This document shows positions 13,469 through 37,099 of a stretch of 39,466 nt of DNA, piece by piece. The notes beneath the pieces are model-generated. The model searched no databases. It saw nothing but the letters and a program-made list of their open reading frames with translations, and was not told where the DNA came from. This DNA comes from Halodesulfovibrio sp. GTDB lineage: Bacteria; Desulfobacterota; Desulfovibrionia; Desulfovibrionales; Desulfovibrionaceae. The first letter of the stretch is position 1. Each line of letters starts with the position of its first letter. The stretch spans positions 1-39,466 of the forward strand of contig QKEJ01000128.1 of NCBI GenBank assembly GCA_003252375.1. Direction: 5' to 3'. Made by a program: the position numbers and the translations under genes.

Positions 13469-14842
13469 CTACTTGCCGATGCAGAAGCTGTCGAAGATCA
13501 TATTGAGAATATCGTCGGGCGTTGTCTCGCCGGTAATATCCGTGAGAATAGCGCAGGCCGCTTCCAGACGCACGCCAAGAATGTCATAGGGGATGCTCAG
13601 GGCGATCTCGCCATGCAGGGCTTCCAGTTCGGACAGCGCCTCCCGAAGGGCCCTGCTCTGCCGCAGGTTGGGAACAAGATCACCGGCCTGCGGCTCCCCT
13701 GCTCCCTGTCTGGCCAGCACATGCTCCCGCGCCCGGGCTACAAGCCCCTCAAGCCCCTGCCCCAGCTTGGCCGATACGGAGACAGCAGCACATCCGGCAT
13801 GCTCCGCCGGAACTGGCCCGGTGGCCAGATCCGTCTTGTTGTAAACAAGCAGAACCCTCTCGGCTCCCACAGAGGCGATCAGCTCCTCTTCCGCCAGTCC
13901 CGGACCATGGCAGGCGTCCACCACCAGCAGAACAAGATCGGCCTGCGAGGCCAGATCCCGGCTGATGCGCACGCCTTCCTGCTCCACGATATCACCGGTT
14001 TCGCGCAATCCTGCCGTATCCACAAGCCGGACCGGCAGACCGTCGAAGCTGAGCTGCTCCTCCAGGAAGTCACGCGTGGTTCCGGGGATTTCGGTGACAA
14101 TGGCCCGGGTACGCCCCAGCAGGCCATTCATGAGGCTCGACTTGCCCGCGTTTACCTGACCGGCCAGCACCACAAGCACGCCCTCGCGCCAGCAACGGGC
14201 CCGGTCATAGTTCTGCAACAGGGAGGCTATGGCCTGTTCCACCGCACTGATGTCCTGCACGAACTCGTCGGGGCTCAGGCACTCGATGTCCTCCTCGGGA
14301 AAATCAACGGCCACGCACAGCTTCATGCGCACCGCCTCCAGCTGCGTACGCAGTTCGGCAATACGCCTGCCGAGCATGCCGTCCAGCTTCGCCTGCGCCA
14401 GACGCACCCCGCTCTGCACCGGTGCCGCGATCATCTCGGCCACGGCTTCGGCCTGCGTCAGATCCATACGTCCGTTCAGAAAAGCGCGCTTGGTGAACTC
14501 ACCGGGCTGGGCCGGACGCACGCCGCAGGCGAACACGGCCTCAAGCACCGCAGTGACGATGGCAGGCCCGCCATGGCAATGAATCTCGGCCACATCCTCG
14601 CCCGTATACGTGTGCGGCGCAGGCATGTGCACGGCCAGCACGTCGTCCAGCGCCGCTCCCAAGACATCTGTCACCGTGCCGTGATGCAGGACGCGGGGCC
14701 TGAATCCGCGGAAAGCGGCGGACGAGGAGCAGAAAAGACGGGCAAGAACGCCTGCGGCATCCGGTCCGCTGATGCGGATGATGCCTATGCCTCCCTGACC
14801 GAGGGGCGTGGCTAGGGCAGCGATGGTTTCTGTATGATGCAT
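13469..14842 (-). CDS. mnmE: tRNA modification GTPase MnmE
   Basis: MnmE works with MnmG to build the 5-carboxymethylaminomethyl group on wobble uridine 34 of tRNAs. The 457 residues have the family order. An N-terminal folate-binding domain ([21 protein letters not shown]) is followed by a helical domain and an embedded GTPase domain. The GTPase motifs are G1 GQVNAGKSS (228-236), GTTRD (254-258) and DTAG (275-278). The protein ends in the conserved CIGK with its catalytic cysteine C454. It is last in the rpmH-to-mnmE run but follows the terminator at 14894-14924, so it may also have its own promoter. Confidence 0.98.
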
Positions 14843-14893
14843 GACTGTTTTCTATCCCTGTCGCCCTCTGCGGGCAAGCCGCAGGACGATGCT

Positions 14894-21162: not shown

Positions 21163-22827
<1,665 letters not shown>

Positions 22828-22844
22828 CTATGTAATATGGGAAG

Positions 22845-23129
22845 TTAGGCGATGATGGCGAGAATGTCGTCTTCGCGCATGACGAGGAAGTCAGTGCCGT
22901 CGATCTTGATTTCGGTACCAGCGTACTTGTTGAAGAGAACGACGTTGCCAACGGCAACGGTCATGGAGATGGTGTTGCCATTTTCAACCTTGCCGGGGCC
23001 AACGGCCACGATTTCACCACGGGAAGGCTTTTCCTTGGCGGTGTCGGGAATGTACAGACCACCGGCGGTCATTTCTTCGGCTTCCAGACGCTTAACCAGA
23101 ACGCGATCGCTCAAAGGCTTCAGATTCAT
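22845..23129 (-). CDS. groES: Co-chaperonin GroES
   Basis: The 10-kDa lid of the GroEL chamber, 94 residues. N-terminal [19 protein letters not shown], the mobile loop with [20 protein letters not shown], and the closing DDILAII are all standard. GGAGG precedes the ATG at 23129. An in-frame ATG six codons earlier is rejected for lack of a ribosome-binding site. The operon has a CIRCE operator and a sigma-70-like promoter upstream. Confidence 0.98.
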
Positions 23130-23169
23130 GCTATAACCCTCCAACATTGTTCATTTCTACTATTTCCTG

Positions 23170-23196
23170 TTAGCAATCCCGATCGACGAGTGCCAA
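23170..23196 (-). promoter_or_regulatory. CIRCE operator (HrcA site) of groESL
   Basis: Read on the minus strand, TTGGCACTC-N9-GATTGCTAA matches the CIRCE consensus TTAGCACTC-N9-GAGTGCTAA at 16 of 18 positions, with the exact nine-base spacer. HrcA bound here represses groESL until heat or protein stress titrates it. The element lies 41 bases ahead of groES, inside the transcribed leader of the promoter at 23208-23236. Confidence 0.92.
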
Positions 23197-23207
23197 CAAC
23201 GAGCGGC

Positions 23208-23236
23208 TATGTACCCTCTCCCGGCTTCTCTTGCAA
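23208..23236 (-). promoter_or_regulatory. Sigma-70-like promoter of groESL
   Basis: On the minus strand TTGCAA (23236-23231) and TACATA (23213-23208) are 17 bases apart. A start about seven bases further on would put the CIRCE element near +10, the usual place. Confidence 0.55.
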
Positions 23237-23435
23237 CTCGAGAATCGGGCTCCGCGCCCGGCGCAGGGGCAACCGCAAACTATGCACATGAAAGACCCGC
23301 TGAAACAAGCGGGCGGAGCAGCGCGGGGAAAAGCTTCCCTCAACGCTGACGGGATAATAAGGCACATTTGAATCTTGAAAAGGGGGAAGACGTATTTTTT
23401 TTAATTTTTTTTGATAAATTCAAAAAATTCAATAG
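23237..23435 (-). other. Gap between the hybrid kinase and groES promoter
   Basis: No gene is seen. A weak hairpin CCCGCT/AGCGGG (23296-23313), followed by TCTTT on the minus strand, may end the kinase transcript. From about 23385 to 23435 the DNA is almost pure A/T, right after the kinase stop, without a GC stem. Confidence 0.35.
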
Positions 23436-25916
23436 CTAAATCGATGAAAGTTCCTGCAAGAGCACCCCCTTGTGCAACGGCTTGGTCAAAAAGCCGGTAC
23501 ACCCGGCCTCAAAGGCCTTGCGCTTCTCTTCCGCAAGGGCGTGCGCCGTAAGCGCAATGATCGGCACCGGAGGGACACCCCGCTCCTTTTCCAGCTCCCG
23601 AATCCGCGAGGTTGCCGCCAATCCGTCCATTACCGGCATCTCAATGTCCATGAGCACAGCATCAAACCGTTCCCGTTCGTACCGGGCCACGCCCTCGCGC
23701 CCATTTCCGGCCATCACCAGTTCATGAGGGGTACGCTTGAGAAAAAGATCCACGATAAGGCGGTTATTCGGAGAATCGTCCACAAGCAATATACGCAGGG
23801 AGCGGGTCACCTGCTCCACGCTGTCGTCCTCCTGCTCCAGACCGGACTGACTGGAAAAAACCGCCACAAGGGCTGATTCAAGCTGGGGGGGGCCGATGGG
23901 CTTTACCAGTCGCGAGATGGACATCCCCTGCGGCAGCACGGGGTCCTTGGCCTCACCGGCGCACACGCGGCGCAGCAACACGCACCGGCGCACGCCCTCC
24001 TCCACCAGTTCTCCCATGTATCGCTCCGCCGCATGCAGTTCTGCCCCATCCTCCGACGGAAGCACCGTAACGACGACGTCTACGGGCATCCCCGTGGTAA
24101 CCAGGCCGCGGATATGTTCACCCACACCCGCGCAATCGGACAGCATGTCCACGGCGGCCCCCATGCCCTGCAGATACTCGCCGAGCAGCGAACGTGACAG
24201 CGCGTGCGGCTCGACAACCAGAACACGCCTGCCCGCCACGACAAAGGAGGCTTCGCGCCGCACCAGCGGCGCCTTGCGCACCTCCAGCAGGGCGGTGAAC
24301 GAAAAGACGGCTCCCTTGCCTGCCTCGCTCTGCACCCAGATCTGCCCGCCCATCAGGGAGACCAGATGACGGCAGATGGCAAGGCCGAGACCTGTTCCGC
24401 CGAACTTGCGCGTGGTGGAAGAATCCGCCTGGGAAAACACCTCGAAGATTCTGGTCTGATGCTCCTGCGGAACCCCTACCCCCGTATCTCGGACGGAAAA
24501 AAGCAGATTTCCGGGATCCGGGGTACGGGGATTGCGCGTTACCTCCAGCACCACTTCCCCCTGCTCCGTGAACTTCACGGCATTGCCCAGAAGGTTGATG
24601 AGCACCTGCCGCAACCGCGTGGGATCCCCAACCAGCCGGGTGGGCACCTCGGGGGCGATACGCCATACGAGTTCCACCCCCTTTTCATGAGCGCGCAAGG
24701 CCATGGACCGGGTAACCTTGTCCACAATCTCCAGAAGATCGAAGTCGATATGCTCCATGCTGAACTGCCCCGACTCCACCTTGGAAATATCGAGAATATC
24801 GTTGATGATGCTCAAGAGCCCGTCCCCCGCCGACTGCAGCACGGCAAGGTTCTCCTTCTGCTCGGCGTTCAGATCACCTTCGGCAAGCAGCTCCGCCATG
24901 CCGAGGATGACATTCATGGGCGTGCGGATCTCGTGGCTCATGGTGGCAAGGAACTGGCTTTTCGACCGGGTTGCAGACTCTGCCAATTCCTTGGCCTTCT
25001 GCAGCTTGCGGATGACGACCTGCAACTCCTCATTCTTTTCGTCGAGCTGGCGCGTCCGCTCCTCCACCTTGTCTTCCAGCGACCAGCTGTACTCCTCGAT
25101 CTGCCGGTTGGCATCCTGAAGACTCAGGGAAAGGCGCTCGGACTCCTTGCGCATGACCAGCAGGTTGGCAAGCATGGCATTGAAGGCCTCCGCCAGCACG
25201 GTCAGCTCGTTGCGCCCCTGCGTGGAGACTGAAACGTTCATGTGCTCAAGGTTGTTCAGGCTGACCAGCGACGTGGCCTGTGTCAGCTCCTCCAGGGGGC
25301 GGGAAAGAATGCTCCGGGCGAACCAGAGAAAGATGATCCACAGGGCGGCCGCCTTGATGAAGGCGTTGACCAGAATGATGAACAGGTCGTTCCACACTTC
25401 CGACAGCACGATACTGCGGCTGGAATACAGGGTCATGGCCCCTATGGTGTAGGGTTCGCCCCCCCGCTCCCTGTAGATGACGGGAATGGTGTGCCAGAAC
25501 AGGTTATCCTTCTCCCCGTTGCCCTCTATGCGCAGCACCACGCCGGTTTCACCAAAGGCCGGCGGAGTGAACGGAAGCGGTTCAACCATGTCCCGCGCCT
25601 CAAAGGTGCCCTGAAATTCGGTCTCCACCCGCACACCGATCACGGCGGGACTTTCCAGCATGCCGTTGACGATGGTGCGCACCTGCTCCTCATCCACATT
25701 GTAGATGGCCGTGGCAAGCCCTTCCCCCACAACAGTCTCCATGGACGAGATCGCCTTTACCACCTTTTCCCTGGCAGAAAGGTACTCACTTCCCAGCTGG
25801 ACAATGGTCAGCAGGCACGTGACGATGACGTACAGCAGAAAGACCCTGCGCAGAAGCAGCGTGGCAATGGAGTTGTGCAGGGGGACAAAGAAGGGGCTGC
25901 GCGTTCTTTCCGCCAT
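23436..25916 (-). CDS. Hybrid sensor histidine kinase with a degenerate and a true receiver
   Basis: An 826-residue inner-membrane sensor. TM1 is about 23-42, a periplasmic sensor of about 130 residues follows, and TM2 is about 176-201. Then come HAMP (about 202-255), a coiled coil (255-318) and HisKA with H328 in TMSHEIRTP. The ATPase domain has N445 in NLLGNAVKF and DTGVG at 477-481. Next is a receiver-like domain (563-690) that keeps the VKP lysine (K672) but lacks the acidic pair and the acceptor aspartate. A true receiver ends the protein (708-826; D713/D714, acceptor D757, K812). The start at 25916 is chosen for GAGG eight bases ahead and lies 11 bases past the solute-binding gene, so the two are co-transcribed. 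The solute-binding proteins upstream may feed it signal (inference). Confidence 0.93.
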
Positions 25917-25927
25917 CGGGATGGTCC

Positions 25928-26680
25928 TCAAGGGGCAAAGGCATAATGGGGATAGGGGAATCCCCATTTGTTAAAGATGACCTGCAATTCGCCGCTCTCA
26001 TGCAAACTGCGCATGCCCTGTGCGTACATCGCCTCGATCTTCCTGCCGCGCGACGAATTCAGCAGAACGGGATAGTACTGGCGCCACCCGGCCTCACGAA
26101 TCGTGTACTCGCTTCTGTCGAACGGGATATGGTTCTGTTCGAGAGACTCCTTGATGAGGCTCAGGTCATCCACATAATAATCGGCCCGCCCGAGCAACAC
26201 CATGCCAAGGGCCGCCTGCGCCGTCTTGACCTGCTTCATCACCACACTCGAAGGGAAATTCTTGCTCGAGTAATACCCGAGACGAAACACCACGGAATGG
26301 TTGGCAAGACTCTCAACCCCGGCCCAGGGCCCGCAGCGCTTCGTGTTGAAAAAGACGTGAAAGCTGCCTTCGTACATGGGATATCGGGCCAGAAACAACG
26401 GAGACACCGCCCTGTCCCGGCAGGTCATCATATCCGCCCGGCCTGCGCGGACCAGGTCATTGCCGCGCTGCGAAGGAACATACAGCCGCTTCAGGGATAT
26501 CCCCTGCTCGGTAAAGATGCGTTGAAGAATCTCGTGATAGAGCCCGGTCCCATCCCTGTTGGTGAACCGCTCCCACGCAGGGCCGACAACGACAATCTCA
26601 CCGAGGTCTTCGGCACACAGCTGCATCGGCATCAGGAGCATAACCAGACAAAAAAGCAGTCTCCGCATCATTGTCCCCAT
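25928..26680 (-). CDS. Periplasmic solute-binding protein, SBP family 3-like (copy 1)
   Basis: A 250-residue exported protein of the amino-acid-type (family 3) binding fold. The signal peptide ends at LCA (about residue 23). The two-lobe pattern is seen in [15 protein letters not shown], then [12 protein letters not shown], the hinge region [18 protein letters not shown], and the closing [10 protein letters not shown]. It is a close paralog of the next gene upstream, about half identical by eye. No permease or ATPase is beside it. It sits 11 bases before the hybrid kinase, so it is more likely a sensor accessory than a transporter part (inference). GGGAG lies six bases before the ATG. Confidence 0.85.
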
Positions 26681-26768
26681 TGGAAACTCCCGAACCCGGC
26701 CGGGGATTCAGACGCGATCATTCCCTGGACTCCACAACACACAACCATGGCCAGCCCCCCACAATGCA

Positions 26769-27518
26769 TCATTTCCCTTCCTCCGCAAAACGGTAAGGCG
26801 GGAAGGGGAATCCCCACTTGGCAAAGATGTCCTGCAACCGCCCACTCCGCGCGAGCATCTCAATACCCTGATCATACAACTCGCGTATGGCGTCACCGCG
26901 TTCCGAACGCAACAGGACAGGATAATAGTTTCTGTATCCGGCCATGCGCATATCAAAGGCATTCCGGTCATAGGGAATCTTGTTCTCTTTCATGGACGTC
27001 TCTATGAACGCCATGTCGTCCACGTAAAAATCGGCCCGGCCAAGCAGCACCATGCCCAGAGCGGCGCTGCCGGTCTTCACCTCACGAAACTGGACGGGGA
27101 CGGGGAAATTGTTTTCCGCATAGTAGCCTAGACGCCAGACAATCACCTTGTCGCGCAGGCTTTCCACCCCCTTCCACTCGCCTATGCGCTCCTTGTTGAA
27201 AAAGACGTAATAGCGCCCGGCAAACATGGGGTGGTGCGCCAACTGCAACGGAGAAGCCGCCTCGTCGTGACAGGTCATCATATCGGCCCTTCCCGAGCGC
27301 ACAAGATCATAGGCACGCTCGGAAGGAACATAAATACGCCTAACAGGGATGCCATACAGTCCAAAGACCGCATGCAATATTTCGTGATACAATCCCGTGC
27401 CGTCCCTGTTGGTGAATCTGTCCCATGAAGGCCCAACGGCAATGACCTCCTTGATGTCTTCAGCATACACACAGGTAGACGACAGCAGGATCAGCAGGAT
27501 GCAAATGATGGATTTCAC
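26769..27518 (-). CDS. Periplasmic solute-binding protein, SBP family 3-like (copy 2)
   Basis: A 249-residue paralog of the gene downstream. It shares the blocks [32 protein letters not shown](F/Y)YVDD, YYPVLL and KWGFP(F/Y)P. GTG 27518 is chosen as the start because GGGAGG sits eight bases ahead and the product then begins with a clean signal peptide (MKSIICILLILLSSTCVYA). The GTG three codons earlier overlaps the ribosome-binding site. The leader contains a long stem that pairs with this ribosome-binding site. It follows the cyclodipeptide-synthase-like gene by 96 bases. The ligand is unknown. Confidence 0.83.
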   Translation of the reverse strand: MKSIICILLILLSSTCVYAEDIKEVIAVGPSWDRFTNRDGTGLYHEILHAVFGLYGIPVRRIYVPSERAYDLVRSGRADMMTCHDEAASPLQLAHHPMFAGRYYVFFNKERIGEWKGVESLRDKVIVWRLGYYAENNFPVPVQFREVKTGSAALGMVLLGRADFYVDDMAFIETSMKENKIPYDRNAFDMRMAGYRNYYPVLLRSERGDAIRELYDQGIEMLARSGRLQDIFAKWGFPFPPYRFAEEGK

Positions 27519-27576
27519 GTTGCTCACCTCCCGATATGCCGAATCAGCTTACATCATCAATCGAGAGGTGGGCAAC
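27519..27576 (-). promoter_or_regulatory. RBS-masking hairpin before solute-binding copy 2
   Basis: Arms 27576-27561 and 27534-27519 (minus-strand order) pair at 15 of 16 positions, counting one G-U, around a 26-base loop. The downstream arm contains the GGGAGG ribosome-binding site and ends directly at the GTG start. If the arms pair in the mRNA, translation would be blocked. The dyad could instead be a DNA operator. No terminator is seen between the two genes. Confidence 0.6.
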
Positions 27577-27614
27577 GGATTGTTTGTGTAAGATCGACAG
27601 AATGCGCTTCAATC

Positions 27615-28391
27615 TTACTTGCGGCTGATGCGAATCCGCAACCAACGGCACAATTCTCCTGTCATACGCTCATAAAAAAGCATGAGAGGATCAAGCCGGT
27701 TGGTATGGGGATAGACGAAGTGATGTTCCGGGCACAATCGGGGGATCATGCGTAACTGAATGGCGTGCTCCTCCAACAGGTATTCCCTGCTCAATGCGGC
27801 TATTCGCTCACGCTCCACCTCCGGCGTGCACTCATCGCAGGCAGACATGACGAAATGGCCGACCATCTCGTCCACAAGCGTGTTCGCATACACATCACGA
27901 AGGCACAGATCATCCAGGGCGCACCGGTTAGGAAGGTATTCCGGCGCGCAGAGAAGCTCGCTCCAATAAACCACATGGCACGGTATATCCAGGCCGTCCC
28001 ACGCACGCCGGTTGTCGGCAACCCAGTCCCTGCCGACCTCGATGGACTGCTCGTAGGCCTGAAGCTTGGAAAGATTCGGATCGCCAATGGAAAGCGTGTG
28101 CCGGTGCAGCAGGTCCGAGACAATGATGGTGCATTCCACAAAGCTTTTTTCCACCAGCCGTACGATGGACTCGAACTTGGCCCCTTCATGGTATTCCTGT
28201 CCCAGACTGACCGGAATGTAGCAATGGTTGGCATGCAGTGATGCCCTGTCAAAGGTCAGGTTACGGAACTTGGCGACGTATCGCTCGCCGCCCTCTGCAT
28301 TGGGTTCTTTAGTACCGGAGCGGGAGGGCCGGACCGGACTGTCCTGTTCTCGAATGGACGCGGGTTGTGGACGATGGTTTTCTTGCAACAT
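27615..28391 (-). CDS. Probable tRNA-dependent cyclodipeptide synthase (XYP type)
   Basis: The 258-residue protein fits the cyclodipeptide synthase family, which takes two aminoacyl-tRNAs and makes a diketopiperazine. After a disordered 45-residue N-terminus, YIPVSLGQEYHEG holds S62 at the place of the AlbC nucleophile S37. The Y204/E208 pair (YLLEE) matches AlbC Y178/E182, and Y227-P228 matches Y202 and the XYP-type proline. The distance S62 to Y204 is 142 (AlbC 141), and S62 to Y227 is 165 (AlbC 165, from recalled numbering). SDLLHRHT also resembles the DTLQRHT block of XYP members. Q65 at the X position rules out the NYQ type. AAGGAG lies six bases before the ATG. No oxidase, P450 or methyltransferase is nearby. 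Product unknown. A search with the CDPS profile would settle it. Confidence 0.8.
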   Translation of the reverse strand: MLQENHRPQPASIREQDSPVRPSRSGTKEPNAEGGERYVAKFRNLTFDRASLHANHCYIPVSLGQEYHEGAKFESIVRLVEKSFVECTIIVSDLLHRHTLSIGDPNLSKLQAYEQSIEVGRDWVADNRRAWDGLDIPCHVVYWSELLCAPEYLPNRCALDDLCLRDVYANTLVDEMVGHFVMSACDECTPEVERERIAALSREYLLEEHAIQLRMIPRLCPEHHFVYPHTNRLDPLMLFYERMTGELCRWLRIRISRK

Positions 28392-28428
28392 GACATACTC
28401 CTTCTGTTAAAGGTATATTGTATGTCAT
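28390..28428 (-). promoter_or_regulatory. Inverted repeat around the cyclodipeptide synthase RBS
   Basis: On the minus strand ATGACATAC (28428-28420) and GTATGTCAT (28398-28390) pair perfectly around 21 bases. The downstream arm overlaps the last base of the ribosome-binding site and two bases of the start codon, and AAGGA is in the loop. It could act as an RNA hairpin or as an operator. TACAAT within this segment is a possible -10, but I see no matching -35. Confidence 0.45.
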
Positions 28429-28490
28429 ATTCACTATCGCATGCACCGCACCCCATAAACAGGTTTTCACCTATTGCGACACAAAACAGT

Positions 28491-30464
28491 CTATTCCCTG
28501 CAGGCCTCCAATTCTGCTATGCGCGCATCCATGGCTTCCCACTGCTCAAGTGCTTCCAGCAGCAGCATTTCCAGCTCCTCTATGCGTACCGTGGCGGAGG
28601 CAAAACCCTCTGGATCCCTTGTGTAAAAATCCGGATCGGACAACGCCGTCTCGAGCTGCCGCTGCTCTTTCTCCAGTCCGGCCGTCGCTTCCGGCATGGC
28701 GTCCCGCTCATCGCGCAACCGGGCAAGTTCACGCTGCTCGTTGAACGTCAGCTTCCGTCTGCGCTGTCCGGCATCACCACCGGTCTCCGCAGTGCCGGAA
28801 GCAGCCCCCTCCTCCTTCCGGGAACGAGGCTCCCGCTCAGCCCCCCTCTCGGGAGTACGAACCGGTCGCTGACGCACCCAGTCATCATAGCCGCCTACAT
28901 ACTCGACAACGCGGCCCCCGCCTTCAAAGGCAAGTGTGGACGTCACGACATTATTCAGGAATTCCCTGTCATGGCTGACCACCAGTACGGTCCCCGCGTA
29001 GGAGCCGAGCAGCTCCTCCAACAGGTCCAGAGTTTCCATATCCAGATCGTTGGTGGGTTCGTCAAAGACAAGAACATTGGAAGGCTTGGTGAAGAGACGA
29101 GCCAGCAAGAGACGATTGCGCTCTCCGCCGGAAAGACAGTTCACCGGCATATGGATTCGCTGCGGATCGAACAGAAATTCCTTGAGATATCCCACAACGT
29201 GCTTGCGTTTTCCGCCAATCTCCACGGTGTCGTTACCGTCCGCCACGTTATCACGAACCGACTTGCTGTCGTCGAGCTCCGCACGCAGCTGATCGAAATA
29301 GGCAACCTCCAGCCTGGTGCCGTGACGCACCGTTCCCACCTGCGGCTCAAGCCTTCCCAGCAGGAGCTTGAGCATGGTGGTCTTCCCAACGCCATTGGGA
29401 CCGAGCAGACCAACCTTGTCGCCCCGGCTGATGACAAACGATGCATCCTGAATGACGGGAGATGCAGCCCCGGGATAGGTGTAGCTCAGCCCCTGAACCT
29501 CGACGACCAGCTTGCCGGATCGTTCCGCATCCTGCACCTGCATGGAGACCGATCCCATGCGCTCCCTCCGCTTGGCCCTCTCCTCGCGCAGGGCATACAA
29601 CTCACGCACTCTGCCCATGTTGCGGGTCCTGCGCGCCTTGATGCCCTTGCGAATCCACACTTCCTCTTCGGCAAGCTTCTGGTCCAGCCGGGCCCACTCC
29701 TGCTGCTCGGCGTGGAGCTGATCGTCCTTGCGCTCAAGAAAGGTATCGTAATCGCACGACCAGTCGGCCAGATGCCCCCGGTCCAGCTCAACAATGCGAT
29801 TGGCCACCTTGCGCAGAAACATGCGGTCATGGGTCACAAGCACCAGCGTCCGTACATACCGCAACAGGAACTCCTCAAGCCAGTCGATGGATTCAATGTC
29901 CAGGTGGTTCGTGGGTTCGTCCAGAAGCAGCATATCGGGCTCCGAAGCCAAGGCCCGCGCCAGCATGACCCGGCGTTTCATCCCACCGGAAAGGCTTGAA
30001 AATTCCACATCAGCCTGCAGCTTGAGATGATTGATGACGCTCTGCACCGTCTGGTGCGCCCCCCAGCCGTGCAGGGCGTCCAGCGTCTGCTGGGCTGCCT
30101 GCAATCGTTCCGAGGCTTCATGGGTGGGGGTGCCCTCCTCCATCTCCAGCAATGCCTGATGATAGGCCGCAAGCGCCTCGCCCGTCCTGCCCATGCCCTG
30201 GGCGATAACCGCATAGACATGACCGGAAATGCCCTGCGGCACATCCTGCGGCAACATGGCGACGCGCAACCCCTGCTGGCGTGCCACCGTTCCGTCATCC
30301 AACGGAATATCGCCGTGCATTACCTTAAGGAAAGTCGACTTGCCGGCGCCATTGCGGCCGAGCAAACAGACGCGCTGCCCTTCCTCGATATGCATGGTCA
30401 CATCATCAAGCAATTGGGGACCACCCAAATTGAGTCTGGCCCCCTGGATACTGATCAAAGCCAT
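28491..30464 (-). CDS. ABC-F family ATPase, Uup-like
   Basis: A 657-residue soluble protein with two ABC ATPase domains and no membrane segments, typical of ABC-F translation factors. Domain 1 has GRNGAGKST and the signature LSGGMKRRV, and domain 2 has GPNGVGKTT and LSGGERNRL. Both have Walker B DEPTN. The linker between them is the charged P-site tRNA interaction motif. The last 90 or so residues form an antiparallel coiled coil like the Uup C-terminal domain. The start at 30464 has AAGGA and removes 29 unlikely residues. Whether it acts on stalled ribosomes, as Uup is thought to, or gives antibiotic protection cannot be read from sequence. It lies 99 bases upstream of the cyclodipeptide-synthase-like gene, with no terminator seen. 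Confidence 0.93.
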   Translation of the reverse strand: MALISIQGARLNLGGPQLLDDVTMHIEEGQRVCLLGRNGAGKSTFLKVMHGDIPLDDGTVARQQGLRVAMLPQDVPQGISGHVYAVIAQGMGRTGEALAAYHQALLEMEEGTPTHEASERLQAAQQTLDALHGWGAHQTVQSVINHLKLQADVEFSSLSGGMKRRVMLARALASEPDMLLLDEPTNHLDIESIDWLEEFLLRYVRTLVLVTHDRMFLRKVANRIVELDRGHLADWSCDYDTFLERKDDQLHAEQQEWARLDQKLAEEEVWIRKGIKARRTRNMGRVRELYALREERAKRRERMGSVSMQVQDAERSGKLVVEVQGLSYTYPGAASPVIQDASFVISRGDKVGLLGPNGVGKTTMLKLLLGRLEPQVGTVRHGTRLEVAYFDQLRAELDDSKSVRDNVADGNDTVEIGGKRKHVVGYLKEFLFDPQRIHMPVNCLSGGERNRLLLARLFTKPSNVLVFDEPTNDLDMETLDLLEELLGSYAGTVLVVSHDREFLNNVVTSTLAFEGGGRVVEYVGGYDDWVRQRPVRTPERGAEREPRSRKEEGAASGTAETGGDAGQRRRKLTFNEQRELARLRDERDAMPEATAGLEKEQRQLETALSDPDFYTRDPEGFASATVRIEELEMLLLEALEQWEAMDARIAELEACRE

Positions 30465-30694: not shown

Positions 30695-32566
30695 ATGAAG
30701 AATAGCACAAAAACCATACTCATTGACGCCGCACTATGTAGTGCAGCAGCCGCAGGCAGCAGCATACTCGGGGCGTTTGCTGCTGAGGCTGTACAACTGA
30801 ACAGTCCGCTCATGGTGCCTGCAATCGTCTTTGCAGGAACAGCAGTTGCCACATGTACGTTCCTGGCCCGGCATGTGGCACGACCATGGCGAATGCTTGC
30901 TGCAGCCGTCGGAAAAGACAGCATCGGCCCCGTAGCCATGGCTGCCGACGCTGCTCAGGCCATCCGCTCCATGCAGGATGAGACCTGCCGCACCAGCAAC
31001 TTTTTCAACGCCGCTCTTGGAGCCCTGTCTGGAGCAGCCCCCTTTGTACTCACGGGCCCTGACGGCACCGTGACCCTCATGGATGATGCCGTTCCGACCC
31101 TTCTGGAGCTGGGAGCTCCGTGCGACGACTTTCTCTGCAAGCCGGCCTCCCTTCTTTTTGACCGGACCGGCAACACGGGCCTTTTCGTCCCCTCACGCAC
31201 GGACATGCGTCCTTCTTCCAAAGAAATACACATCGGCAGGGGCGAACAGACACGCGTTGTCCTCTGCACCCATACGCCGCTCAGGGATGCCGACGGCAAC
31301 ATGCTGGGGCACTGTATCTGCCTGCGCGATCTCACGGATCAGCGCAGGCAGGAAAAGATGGCAGTTGAGGAAAAGGTGCGCACTGCAGATCTGATCACCC
31401 GCATTCTCGAAGCCGCCGAGCAGGTGGACAGGGCTTCCGAGGATCTGGCCGGACGTATTCAGAACGCCAACTCCGGTGCGTCGCAGCAACAGCAACGCAC
31501 AACCGAAACAGCCACGGCCATGGAACAGATGAACGCCACGGTCATGGAGGTCGCCCGCAGTGCCGGTGATGCGGCCGAACTTGCCGCCCACACCCGCAGC
31601 CAGTCCTCCAACGGTGCACAGCAGATGCACACCCTTGAATCGGACATCACCAGCGTGGGAGGCGTCATTACGCATCTCGGAGAACGCATTACCGACCTGG
31701 GAACCCGTGCCCAGGACATCGGGCTGGTCATGAACGTCATCAATGACATTGCGGACCAGACCAATCTGCTGGCGCTCAACGCGGCCATCGAGGCGGCACG
31801 AGCCGGTGATGCCGGCCGCGGATTCGCCGTGGTGGCCGATGAGGTGCGCAAACTGGCTGAAAAGACCATGCATGCCACCAACGAAGTAGGCGACGCCATC
31901 CGCTCCATTCAGGAGAGCTCCAAAGCCGCGGAAGCGGAAATGCGCCAGGCCCTCGAAGCCGTGGATACCGTCACCGCCAGTGCGCAGGCTTCAGGCGAGG
32001 CATTGAGGGATATCGTGCAGCTGGCGGACAGGACCAGCGAACAGGTACAGTCCATTGCCACCGCAGCCGAGGAACAGTCCGCCACATCAGAGCAGATCAA
32101 CCGGGCCGTCGATGAAATTACCAGCATCGCCACGGATACCATGGATACCATGAACAAGTCGGCAACGGACGTCTTCAGCCTCACCGGACGCGCCAGCGAC
32201 CTCAAACTGCTGATTGAAAGCATGCGGGACGGGGAATGCGCCGCGCAGGAAACGGGTTCCGCCCAGCCATGCTGGGTGCACAAGGATTGCGGCAGGGAAA
32301 AAGGCGGCAAGCGTGAGCAGGAGATGGGCATCTGCCCCGCATGGCCGAACCATGGATTCAGCTGCGCCTCCGTGACGGGGACCTATTGCGGCGGCGAGAT
32401 TCAGGAGACCTTTGCCAAGAAAATCGCCAACTGTGCAAAATGCGACTACTTCAAGAGCGCACACTATGACAGGGAAAGCATCCATTCCGCATTCCAGCAT
32501 GATCAGACCGCTCAGCTGAAGCCCCTCAAGCCGCAGCGTTCCAAGGGCAGGTCACTCAAGGCCTAG
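30695..32566 (+). CDS. Methyl-accepting chemotaxis protein with C-terminal two-CW module
   Basis: A 623-residue chemoreceptor. Two N-terminal membrane segments (about 8-32 and 37-60) are separated by only a few residues, so there is almost no periplasmic domain and sensing must be internal. A PAS-like domain spans about 100-215. The signalling domain follows, with its hairpin tip near 347-391 ([16 protein letters not shown]...[15 protein letters not shown]). After it, about 526-588, comes a cysteine-rich module ([28 protein letters not shown]) that fits the two-CW domain seen in delta-proteobacterial receptors and probably binds metal or an Fe-S centre. The second CW is CA here. No methylesterase pentapeptide is present. 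The start has no strong ribosome-binding site. It is divergent from the ABC-F gene. Confidence 0.93.
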
Positions 32567-32661
32567 CGTCGCACACAGGGAAGAAGCCCTGCTGTGGCAG
32601 GTTGCGGTTGCACTGCCCATGCGGAACGGCTATGCTGTTTGGCAATCCAAGGAGCTGTCCG

Positions 32662-33048
32662 ATGGGAACGACGGGAACAAAAGCCTCTCAGGCATTTATT
32701 ACATGGCTGGAATCAAAGGCAAAGGCTGTTAAGGATCTGGAGACCAAGGCCGCCAAGGCCTTGCATGAAAAACAGGATCAGGCTCGCTACAAACACCTGA
32801 TGTTGGAAAAAACGACCCTGCTCGCCCAGCTTGCGGAAGAGGCAGCCCCGCTGGTCGCACAACTTCCGGAGCCGGAACGCGGCCCCATAAGCGACAGGCT
32901 TTCACGCTTTTCCAACAGCGCCAGTACTGCGAAGCGCATAGGGTCCGTCTTCTACATGTCCGCCCTGTTGTATCCGGACGACCATGTTGCCGGACAGATG
33001 AACGACCTTGAAGCCTTCATAGCCTCCCTCCGCCCCTCACAGGATTAG
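32662..33048 (+). CDS. Small helical protein of unknown function
   Basis: A 128-residue protein, almost all helix, with a charged stretch (about 15-55: WLESKAKAVKDLETKAAKAL) that may form a coiled coil. No signal peptide or membrane segment is seen. The start at 32662 is chosen because AAGGAG lies seven bases ahead, and residues of the longer frame look non-coding. It follows the chemoreceptor by 95 bases and ends at a terminator. I do not recognise the family. Confidence 0.65.
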   Translation: MGTTGTKASQAFITWLESKAKAVKDLETKAAKALHEKQDQARYKHLMLEKTTLLAQLAEEAAPLVAQLPEPERGPISDRLSRFSNSASTAKRIGSVFYMSALLYPDDHVAGQMNDLEAFIASLRPSQD

Positions 33049-35148: not shown

Positions 35149-35378
35149 GATGTTTCCTTTCACTGGAGCAACAGGCTGGACTCGCAACATGCGAAACGGC
35201 AGCCTCGCTGCCACCAATACGCGTCACGGCATCCATCACTCTACGCGGAGCCGCCCCGTTGCGCAATCTCCGGTGCGCCTCCATGCGGACAACGGGAAAA
35301 CGGCACAACTGGACAACTAGACAGGGACAGCCGGGTATGGAAGATTGCCCGAACATAACAAGGAGCACCTGCAGGCCC

Positions 35379-36329
35379 ATGAACGATATTCTCATGCTTT
35401 TCGACCTCGAACCGGCCCGAGTTCCCGCAACAGTCCCGCCGCCGCATATTCCCGGCAGCCCCGAACGCTGCCTTGAGCGACTCGTACGGGAGGACGCGCA
35501 AGGCAACCTGTGGCTGTTGGAGCGTCTGGCCCCGCTCCAGCGGGAACGCCGGGAGAGCATTGCAGCCCTCCTCTCCGGACTGGATGCCGCCGGCGCCCCC
35601 CATGTACGCCCCTTCCGTCAGTGCACGAACGGCACCAGCGTTGCGGACCACGGCAGTGGCGCATGGCAATGCTCCCCATTTATCACCGGGATAGAATTGC
35701 CGAGACCCGACTACATCGACGACGCCTGGCGGGGCACGTGCACAGGCGAATTCATTGCCGGACTCCAACGGGCGGGCGGCACCCTCGCCACCATCCCCGA
35801 GGCCGGCACGCCGCCCCTTCCAGACTATATTGCCTCTCTGGCCAACACCATTCAGGCGCGGCAACCCGACGTGTACAACCGCATCCACCCCATGCTGCCC
35901 CATTTCGCACCGCTCTTCGCCATGCTGCCGTCCCTGCCCACGGCCATTGCACATGGCGACTGCCACCCCCTCAACATCATCTGGGGCAGACACGCCATCA
36001 ACGGCATCATCGACTGGGAATTCACGGGACGCAAACCCGTCCTGTACGACGCGGCCAACTGCATCGGCTGTGTCGGCTTCGAGCACCCGGACTGGCTTGT
36101 GCGCGGCTTCATTCCGGCACTCATCCGCACCCTGTCCGAACATGGCATTCTCGATGATGCAACCGCCCCGATGCTGCTGCCCTTCACCTGCGCCCTGCGC
36201 TTTGCATGGCTCTCTGAATGGCTGCGACGGGACGACCAGGAGATGATCTGCATGGAACTCGACTACATGGATATCCTCATCCGCCACGGCAAGGCCATTG
36301 AACAGGCCTGGGAGGCCTGCCGCATCTGA
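35379..36329 (+). CDS. Aminoglycoside-phosphotransferase-fold kinase
   Basis: A 316-residue protein of the APH/choline-kinase fold. The catalytic loop HGDCHPLN (H192, D194) and the metal-binding IDWEF (D212) are clear. A long frame upstream is rejected because the region before the ATG is intergenic and overlaps the helicase start on the other strand. AAGGAG is present but 13 bases away, which is long. The substrate is unknown; homoserine, choline, sugars or an antibiotic are all possible for this fold. The family also includes many house-keeping kinases, so no resistance role should be assumed. Confidence 0.85.
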   Translation: MNDILMLFDLEPARVPATVPPPHIPGSPERCLERLVREDAQGNLWLLERLAPLQRERRESIAALLSGLDAAGAPHVRPFRQCTNGTSVADHGSGAWQCSPFITGIELPRPDYIDDAWRGTCTGEFIAGLQRAGGTLATIPEAGTPPLPDYIASLANTIQARQPDVYNRIHPMLPHFAPLFAMLPSLPTAIAHGDCHPLNIIWGRHAINGIIDWEFTGRKPVLYDAANCIGCVGFEHPDWLVRGFIPALIRTLSEHGILDDATAPMLLPFTCALRFAWLSEWLRRDDQEMICMELDYMDILIRHGKAIEQAWEACRI

Positions 36330-36345
36330 AAGGCGCGCACTTCTC

Positions 36346-36368
36346 AAGGGGATTATTTCCCCTTTCCT
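36346..36368 (+). terminator. Weak terminator after the kinase gene
   Basis: A 7-bp stem AAGGGGA/TCCCCTT (36346-36352 with 36358-36364) has a TTATT loop and is followed by a pyrimidine-rich tract rather than a pure T-run. It lies 16 bases after the stop. Confidence 0.4.
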
Positions 36369-36374
36369 CTCCCT

Positions 36375-36397
36375 TTTTCCGGAAAACTGCCTATAGT
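36375..36397 (+). promoter_or_regulatory. Possible msrA promoter with palindrome
   Basis: TTTTCCGGAAAA is a perfect 12-base palindrome at 36375-36386. TATAGT at 36392-36397 fits a -10 box. No standard -35 lies 17 bases upstream, so an activator bound at the palindrome is conceivable. Confidence 0.3.
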
Positions 36398-36481
36398 ATT
36401 GGGAAATGCCCAGCATGGCCGCGTGCACAGCAGACCGCAACAGAGCCCCTGCAACAATCCGCGCACGCAAGGGAGGACCCC

Positions 36482-37099
36482 ATGAGCATGACACTCCATT
36501 TCGGCATAACCCTGCTTCTGATCGGGGGGCTGATTGCCCCCGTTATCGTACCGGTCCGGGCTCAGGCAGCCGACGCCACGCAGACAGCCACCTTTGCAGG
36601 GGGCTGCTTCTGGTGCCTCGAAAGCGACTTTGACAAGGTTGACGGCGTTCTCGAGACCATTTCGGGCTATACGGGAGGGCACAGGGACAACCCCACGTAC
36701 AAGGAAGTCTCTGCCGGCTCCACCGGGCACAAGGAGGCCCTGCAGGTTCGATACGATCCGACAAAAGTCTCCTATGAAGACCTGCTGCACGTTTTCTGGA
36801 AAAACATTGATCCGCTGGACCCCTATGGGCAATTCTGCGACAAGGGTGAACAGTACCGCTCCGCCATCTTCTACCACGATGCGGAACAGAGGACCCTTGC
36901 CGAGGCGTCCAAGCAGGCCCTCACCGCCTCCGGACAATTCGACAGCCCGATCACGACCGAAATCGTGCCCGCCGGGGCCTTCTGGCCGGCAGAGGAATAT
37001 CACCAGGACTACTATCTCAAGAACCCGATACGGTATAAATTCTACCGCTACAACTGCGGCCGCGACCAGCGCCTGAAATCACTCTGGGGTGACAAATAG
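36482..37099 (+). CDS. msrA: Peptide-methionine (S)-S-oxide reductase MsrA, exported
   Basis: MsrA repairs oxidised methionine (S-sulfoxide) in proteins. The active-site motif GCFWC is at 41-45 with catalytic C42, and the family segments SGYTGGH, YKEVSAGSTGHKE, DPYGQFCDKGEQYRSAIF and EEYHQDYY follow. A signal peptide (about 1-30, ending AQAAD) sends it to the periplasm, unlike the usual cytosolic MsrA. The resolving cysteine is in YRYNCGRD. GGGAGG sits five bases before the ATG. It probably guards periplasmic proteins during oxygen exposure. Confidence 0.97.
   Translation: MSMTLHFGITLLLIGGLIAPVIVPVRAQAADATQTATFAGGCFWCLESDFDKVDGVLETISGYTGGHRDNPTYKEVSAGSTGHKEALQVRYDPTKVSYEDLLHVFWKNIDPLDPYGQFCDKGEQYRSAIFYHDAEQRTLAEASKQALTASGQFDSPITTEIVPAGAFWPAEEYHQDYYLKNPIRYKFYRYNCGRDQRLKSLWGDK

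Follow-up and report, generated by a model that had tools for sequence, protein, structure and literature searches.

Does a bacterium that carries a cyclodipeptide synthase (CDPS) gene at the head of a row of sensor genes sense the cyclic dipeptide that it makes? The question is raised by a stretch of 39,466 nucleotides from Halodesulfovibrio sp. (contig QKEJ01000128.1), the whole of which is called the window here. Whether diketopiperazines (DKPs) act as bacterial signals is a long-standing topic of discussion, and to our knowledge a DKP synthase genetically linked to a receptor has so far been lacking. A sequence-only reading had picked out one open reading frame (ORF) of the window as a CDPS and guessed that its product might serve as a signal. 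Downstream of this gene and on the same strand lie genes for two solute-binding proteins (SBP1 and SBP2) and a hybrid histidine kinase, followed by a terminator-like hairpin and groES-groEL. The features that the argument needs are listed below.

27615..28391, minus strand: CDPS of the XYP subfamily, 258 aa, assigned by homology, fold, catalytic residues and tRNA-contact strands
27522..27573, minus strand: 13-bp covarying hairpin at the CDPS-SBP1 junction, with the SBP1 Shine-Dalgarno sequence in its 3' arm
26769..27527, minus strand: SBP1, a solute-binding protein that looks secreted and is of the SBP_bac_3 type, adjacent to the CDPS gene in all four carriers of the genus
25928..26680, minus strand: SBP2, a second, diverged solute-binding protein of the same family as SBP1
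23436..25916, minus strand: hybrid histidine kinase with a transmembrane segment, periplasmic domain, transmembrane segment, HAMP, HisKA, HATPase and REC, from Pfam and hydropathy
23295..23314, minus strand: terminator-like hairpin CCCGC...GCGGG, then T-rich, in the kinase-groES gap and similar in four genomes

The ORF at 27615-28391 proved real and lies on the minus strand, which had been left unstated; the plus-strand frame there has stops, and the ATG of the CDPS gene is directly preceded by a strong Shine-Dalgarno sequence, AGAAGGAG. A phmmer search against PDB sequences returned seven distinct sequences at E <= 1, all seven of them CDPSs (six by molecule name; 5mlp, whose molecule name is 'Uncharacterized protein', by its entry title 'CDPS from Rickettsiella grylli'). 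The best match was the Fluoribacter dumoffii enzyme (Fdum-CDPS, 5ocd) at an E-value of 3.8e-21, which improved to 1.6e-26 when a profile built from the four CDPS homologs was used. An AF2 model with a pLDDT of 80.5, computed from an alignment of four sequences, showed the Rossmann-like fold of the CDPS/class-I aminoacyl-tRNA synthetase type. In a Foldseek search with this model, ranks 1-44 were CDPSs and ranks 45-50 comprised five tRNA synthetase chains and one CDPS. The first rank fell to 5ocd, with a TM-score to target of 0.85-0.86 for its eight listed chains. Identity to solved CDPSs is 22-24% for the best 16 Foldseek chains. Fdum-CDPS itself is 22-23% identical in the structural alignment; the two enzymes share the catalytic Ser, Tyr and Glu within the aligned part as well as a Pro two residues ahead of the catalytic Ser.

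The search with the Pfam CDPS model (PF16715), which the sequence-only reading had proposed as a check, gave a weak match (16 bits, E 0.01) under the curated cut-off of 27, at which the check would have looked negative; at E <= 0.001 PF16715 has no match anywhere in the genome of the window. The NCBIfam model TIGR04539 scored 30.4 bits against a cut-off of 45 (E 2.6e-7). Both cut-offs are thresholds for annotation and no biochemical feature. Annotation software would probably miss the gene, and since it falls under the cut-offs of both models tried, such loci may be under-counted.

S62, Y204, E208 and Y227 of the window enzyme are the counterparts of the S. noursei residues S37, Y178, E182 and Y202, a correspondence that derives from sequence alignment and spacing and not from coordinate superposition. 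S62 and Y204 are 142 residues apart and S62 and Y227 are 165 apart, as had been counted before; the positions printed for the catalytic residues of the S. noursei enzyme (S37, Y178 and Y202; PMC13062777) give 141 and 165. The same source defines XYP enzymes by any residue at position 40 together with P203, against N40-H203 for NYH enzymes, and has XYP CDPSs contact the tRNA acceptor stem via the basic strands beta2 and beta7 (PMC13062777). In S. noursei numbering, Q65 of the window enzyme stands at position 40 and P228 at position 203, and two strands of the model (about 38-43 and 250-257) carry K41, R43, R252, R254 and R257, all invariant in the four homologs. S62, Q65, Y204, E208, Y227 and P228 are invariant in all four homologs and in a Legionellales relative (P0003). 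As far as the sequence tells, the catalytic residues are intact. The CDPS identity of this ORF, borne out by sequence, profile, fold and catalytic residues, is near certain, and the assignment to the XYP type likewise held up, with P228 at the P203 site, Q65 and the two basic tRNA-contact strands added to the sequence, profile and fold. The enzyme is also under purifying selection, as the closest pair of homologs has a dN of 0.20 against a dS of 1.33, at pairwise identities of 58-71% among the four genomes; outside groES, most pairs have a dS that is infinite or close to saturation. Fdum-CDPS uses two Gly-tRNA as substrates (PMC12945691). For the product of the window enzyme our weak guess is a DKP in which one or both positions hold a small residue such as Gly or Ala.

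The genes downstream of the CDPS gene have the makings of a receptor. SBP1, for which a GTG at 27518 is a more likely start than that of the listed ORF, and SBP2 both have signal-peptide-like N-termini by hydropathy. Their matches to SBP_bac_3 are weak and under the cut-off (E 0.001 and 0.017, respectively), and an SBP model gave strong Foldseek E-values, yet TM-scores to target of mostly about 0.5 at an rmsd of about 7. The kinase ORF is listed from 25967; its homologs put the start at 25916, 11 nt past the SBP2 stop. HAMP, HisKA, HATPase_c and Response_reg all score over their Pfam cut-offs, and the periplasmic part has a weak match to CHASE5 (E 0.0055, under the cut-off). A secreted-looking SBP adjoins a membrane hybrid histidine kinase, as in a LuxPQ-like receptor. 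No permease was found among ten neighbour proteins with Pfam at E <= 0.001, a threshold at which four of the ten (SBP1, SBP2, 32602-33048 and 35241-36494) have no match at all. The earlier observation that no tailoring enzyme is nearby was also sustained, both in the ORFs read over 22-34 kb and in the ten Pfam-scanned neighbours.

The CDPS gene, the two SBP genes and the kinase gene probably form an operon. The gaps around the CDPS gene measure 87-202 nt before it and 87-99 nt after it in the four genomes, and ahead of it a promoter scan of the minus strand detected no sigma-70-type site. The terminator-like hairpin at 23295-23314 draws its weight from the similarity among four genomes, because the scan itself, with five terminator-like sites against a shuffle mean of 6.3, shows no excess.

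Within the genus, the order ABC-F, CDPS, SBP1, SBP2, kinase, groES, groEL is identical in all four CDPS-bearing genomes (that of the window, G000, and G003, G005 and G006). The CDPS gene is present in 4 of 10 genomes and an adjacent SBP1 relative in the same four; in the other six, a gap of about 0.5-0.64 kb separates the ABC-F match from the groES match and contains none of the four genes. This joint presence and absence counts once, as the carriers, possibly a single clade, may reflect one event. The host had been described as sulfate-reducer-like, in line with its dsrA match of 640 bits, where the cut-off is 393 and none of 14 control genomes reached it. A methyl-accepting chemotaxis protein (MCP) gene at 30695-32566, divergent and adjoining the ABC-F gene, has a relative at that place in the other three CDPS genomes and no match in the corresponding stretches of the six CDPS-less genomes of the genus.

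The junction between the CDPS and SBP1 genes carries the 13-bp hairpin. Over the four genomes together, 51 of its 52 cells are paired and 7 of the 13 pairs are changed on both sides, statistics that come from four sequences, which are few, and from a structure derived from those same sequences. Its covariation score was reached by none of 500 shuffles and its count of pairs changed on both sides by two of 500; further pair types are not above the shuffles (176 of 500 as high), and slid versions of the hairpin are 42-50% paired. A model of the hairpin (R1) found one strong copy per CDPS genome at 71-80 bits, in a genome search that scored the best 150 first-look candidates per genome, and none in the 14 CDPS-less stretches searched. 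Weak matches in G001, G002 and G009 (E 8.2e-5, 0.016 and 0.061) were taken as chance, and weak opposite-strand matches at the same places as the hairpin's own mirror. In G005 a T run follows the stem in a terminator-like manner, which makes transcription attenuation at the junction possible. Rfam, run over 22800-28600 with E up to 1, had no match at the junction hairpin; the matches listed (23333-23415 and 24788-24915, plus strand) are far under the gathering scores.

Our main reading is that the locus pairs a DKP synthase with its own periplasmic sensor in a LuxPQ-like layout with a signalling role, to which, arguing from the analyses above, we give a probability of roughly 40%. The CDPS would take two aminoacyl-tRNAs, load the first aminoacyl group on S62 and release a plain DKP, which would exit the cell through diffusion or general efflux. 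SBP1 and/or SBP2 would bind the DKP in the periplasm, and these proteins, with no transporter encoded beside them, would contact the periplasmic domain of the kinase and alter the output of its phosphorelay, in a manner resembling the action of AI-2/LuxP on LuxQ. The four genes would be co-transcribed with the CDPS gene at the head. That the SBPs and the kinase sense a DKP we infer from gene context; the signal role that the sequence-only reading had guessed gains indirect support from the SBP and kinase genes directly downstream in all four carriers. A stronger version, in which the locus is dedicated to DKP signalling, with the CDPS genetically fixed to its own receptor after the synthase and the hairpin over the ribosome-binding site were added to an older SBP-kinase sensor, we put forward tentatively and with some doubt.

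Such receptors have models. LuxQ and TorS are hybrid kinases, as the window kinase is. Binding-protein-to-kinase precedents include LuxP-LuxQ, TorT-TorS and XylFII-LytS (PMC6321045), and LuxP/LuxQ and TorT/TorS share with the window the combination of a solute-binding protein and a membrane histidine kinase (PMC6321045). The window differs from these two in having two SBP_bac_3-type proteins and a linked tRNA-dependent synthase, and its ligand is putative.

The sensor genes also occur by themselves, and the explanation that competes best builds on this: the CDPS may make a DKP that is a secondary metabolite with another use, while the compound detected by SBP1/SBP2 and the kinase comes from the environment, be it an amino acid, a peptide or something else, co-transcription being all that joins synthase and sensor. 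We consider this a possible, if doubtful, account of the locus. At E <= 1e-10 an SBP profile (A2) matched 43 of the family's 277 genomes, and SBP loci were examined in 31 of these (30 short loci and 16 longer stretches), with the other 12 genomes outside the set. An SBP together with a kinase that has a homologous sensor region was found in nine genomes, namely the four CDPS carriers and five others from four other genera (G030, G118, G202, G022 and G011), and no CDPS match appeared in the stretches fetched from those five. In G118 an ABC-F relative stands ahead of the SBP-SBP-kinase row with no CDPS match between. SBPs are common in genus g5 without that kinase in the loci examined, and in G311 a kinase core adjoins an SBP without the homologous sensor region. 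Their co-occurrence in five genomes of four other genera makes the SBPs and the kinase look like partners. It also means that a sensor operon which elsewhere exists on its own has either gained the synthase or lost it, and that the ancestral ligand need not be a DKP. This is the strongest counter-evidence to DKP sensing, and the ligand may be something else; the SBP fold and the weak profile matches indicate an amino-acid SBP family. Against an environmental ligand, the CDPS gene still heads the row after divergence to 58-71% identity.

Features of the SBPs themselves do not help to choose the ligand. In a tree of 26 rows, the eight CDPS-linked SBPs group with a support of 90/84, which is below the program's own star, and SBP2 has a long stem of 0.45 with a support of 100/100. 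Duplication as a sign of a new ligand was dropped, since G030 and G118, where no CDPS is linked, likewise carry SBPs in tandem, one copy being the more diverged. A profile alignment places Pro, in all eight CDPS-linked SBPs, in the column of the GlnP SBD2 Arg that presumably holds the carboxylate of the amino acid. This would speak for a DKP and against an environmental amino acid, and it was rejected as a sign of either because Arg is found in none of the 26 rows, including the 18 not linked to a CDPS, so that its absence is not distinctive. Three CDPS-less loci have a receiver-domain gene or region after the kinase (L067 12784-13191, L069 13145-13531 and L066 about 14478-14852; seen with Pfam in L067 and with tblastn in all three), which may be the response regulator missing from the window.

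We regard it as unlikely that the CDPS gene is a mere passenger, inserted at a permissive site between the ABC-F and sensor genes with no functional tie to either. A single insertion event would suffice for this, and the gaps on both sides of the gene have room for separate promoters. The order's other CDPSs also speak for a passenger, being unlinked to SBPs in the stretches fetched. TIGR04539 found CDPSs in 8 of the 348 genomes of the order, these being the four genus carriers and G076, G281, G225 and G121, whereas the CDPS profile A1 found 4 of 348, and 1 of 395 in a phylum sample (the window's own); PF16715 found 1 of 395 in that sample, a weak partial match in G121. The CDPSs of G076, G281, G225 and G121 belong to the same family in relatives of the host, as does that of Desulfovibrio aespoeensis, whose gene shares a predicted operon with that of a Mur ligase (PMC2922099). 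The four from the order's genomes differ from the window enzyme in forming a separate branch that A1 misses and TIGR04539 finds, and no SBP1 or SBP2 match was seen in the stretches fetched around them, which for G076 is a contig of just 4.8 kb. On one contig of G281 lie a CDPS (1.315 Mb) and, 0.79 Mb from it, an SBP of the SBP1/SBP2 family (2.106 Mb), which speaks against a general tie between CDPSs and SBPs. G225 has a kinase-like ORF near its CDPS gene, pointing towards it from the other side with one ORF between. The CDPS-like ORF of G121 (L034 9888-11488) ends early, and an ORF that looks by eye like a transposase or integrase lies 50 nt downstream.

Three observations argue against a passenger. 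The gene order is kept in four of four genomes. The hairpin covers the SBP1 ribosome-binding site in all four, and model R1 finds none in the CDPS-less loci searched. Finally, another CDPS relative, a distant one, likewise lies beside a kinase. Scans for relatives outside the genus, of genome contigs by pattern with P0001 and profile A1 and of viral contigs with A1, yielded none by tblastn, and phages gave no match. Tblastn against plasmids returned four records, all p-ren of Candidatus Endohaliclona renieramycinifaciens (Legionellales), at 32% identity over 72% of the query. The relative (MK748464.1 4521-5333; L095 4896-5708) is annotated 'hypothetical protein', matches 5ocd at 2.3e-52, is not listed by the Pfam CDPS model and lies about 3.4 kb from renA on this renieramycin plasmid. 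At 37 nt from it is a gene annotated as a putative sensor histidine kinase (MK748464.1 2693-4483; L095 5746-7536), a neighbour seen in one p-ren record, with the same CDPS gene also on the other three plasmids. In the p-ren kinase a PQ-loop membrane part is combined with PAS domains; the significant likeness of this kinase to the window kinase is confined to the kinase core, and the sensor parts are unrelated. Should the dedicated-locus version be right, the window and the Legionellales plasmid together would suggest that the pairing of a CDPS with a sensor kinase arose repeatedly, with unrelated kinases.

That the CDPS fold is re-used for another tRNA-dependent reaction, such as linear-dipeptide formation or transfer to a different acceptor, is very improbable: activity is unreadable from sequence, identity to solved enzymes is low (22-24%) and four XYP CDPSs are tabled with '-' for the product (PMC5816076), but all four catalytic residues, including the cyclisation residue Y227, and the XYP Pro are invariant in the four homologs and P0003.

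Returning to a DKP synthase with its own sensor, a reported parallel is that PAS domains were noted among CDPS neighbours, with a quorum-sensing role suggested (PMC5767969); the main text of that paper has neither 'histidine kinase' nor 'two-component' nor 'solute'. Compared with the PAS-gene loci given there, the window unit consists of periplasmic SBPs and a hybrid kinase and is conserved across species. In literature covered by titles and abstract starts, with most subscription journals outside, we found no description of a CDPS, SBP and histidine kinase arrangement. If the main reading is true, the bacterium may both make and sense a cyclic dipeptide, and DKP signalling could be put to a direct test with four genes, those for the enzyme, both SBPs and the kinase.

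Past the kinase gene, the region upstream of groES (22845-23440 of the window) contains blocks conserved in the four genomes, among them an inverted repeat, GGCACTC...GAGTGCTAA, which we take to be CIRCE-like. The repeat is exact in G005 and G006 and one or two bases off in the window and G003.
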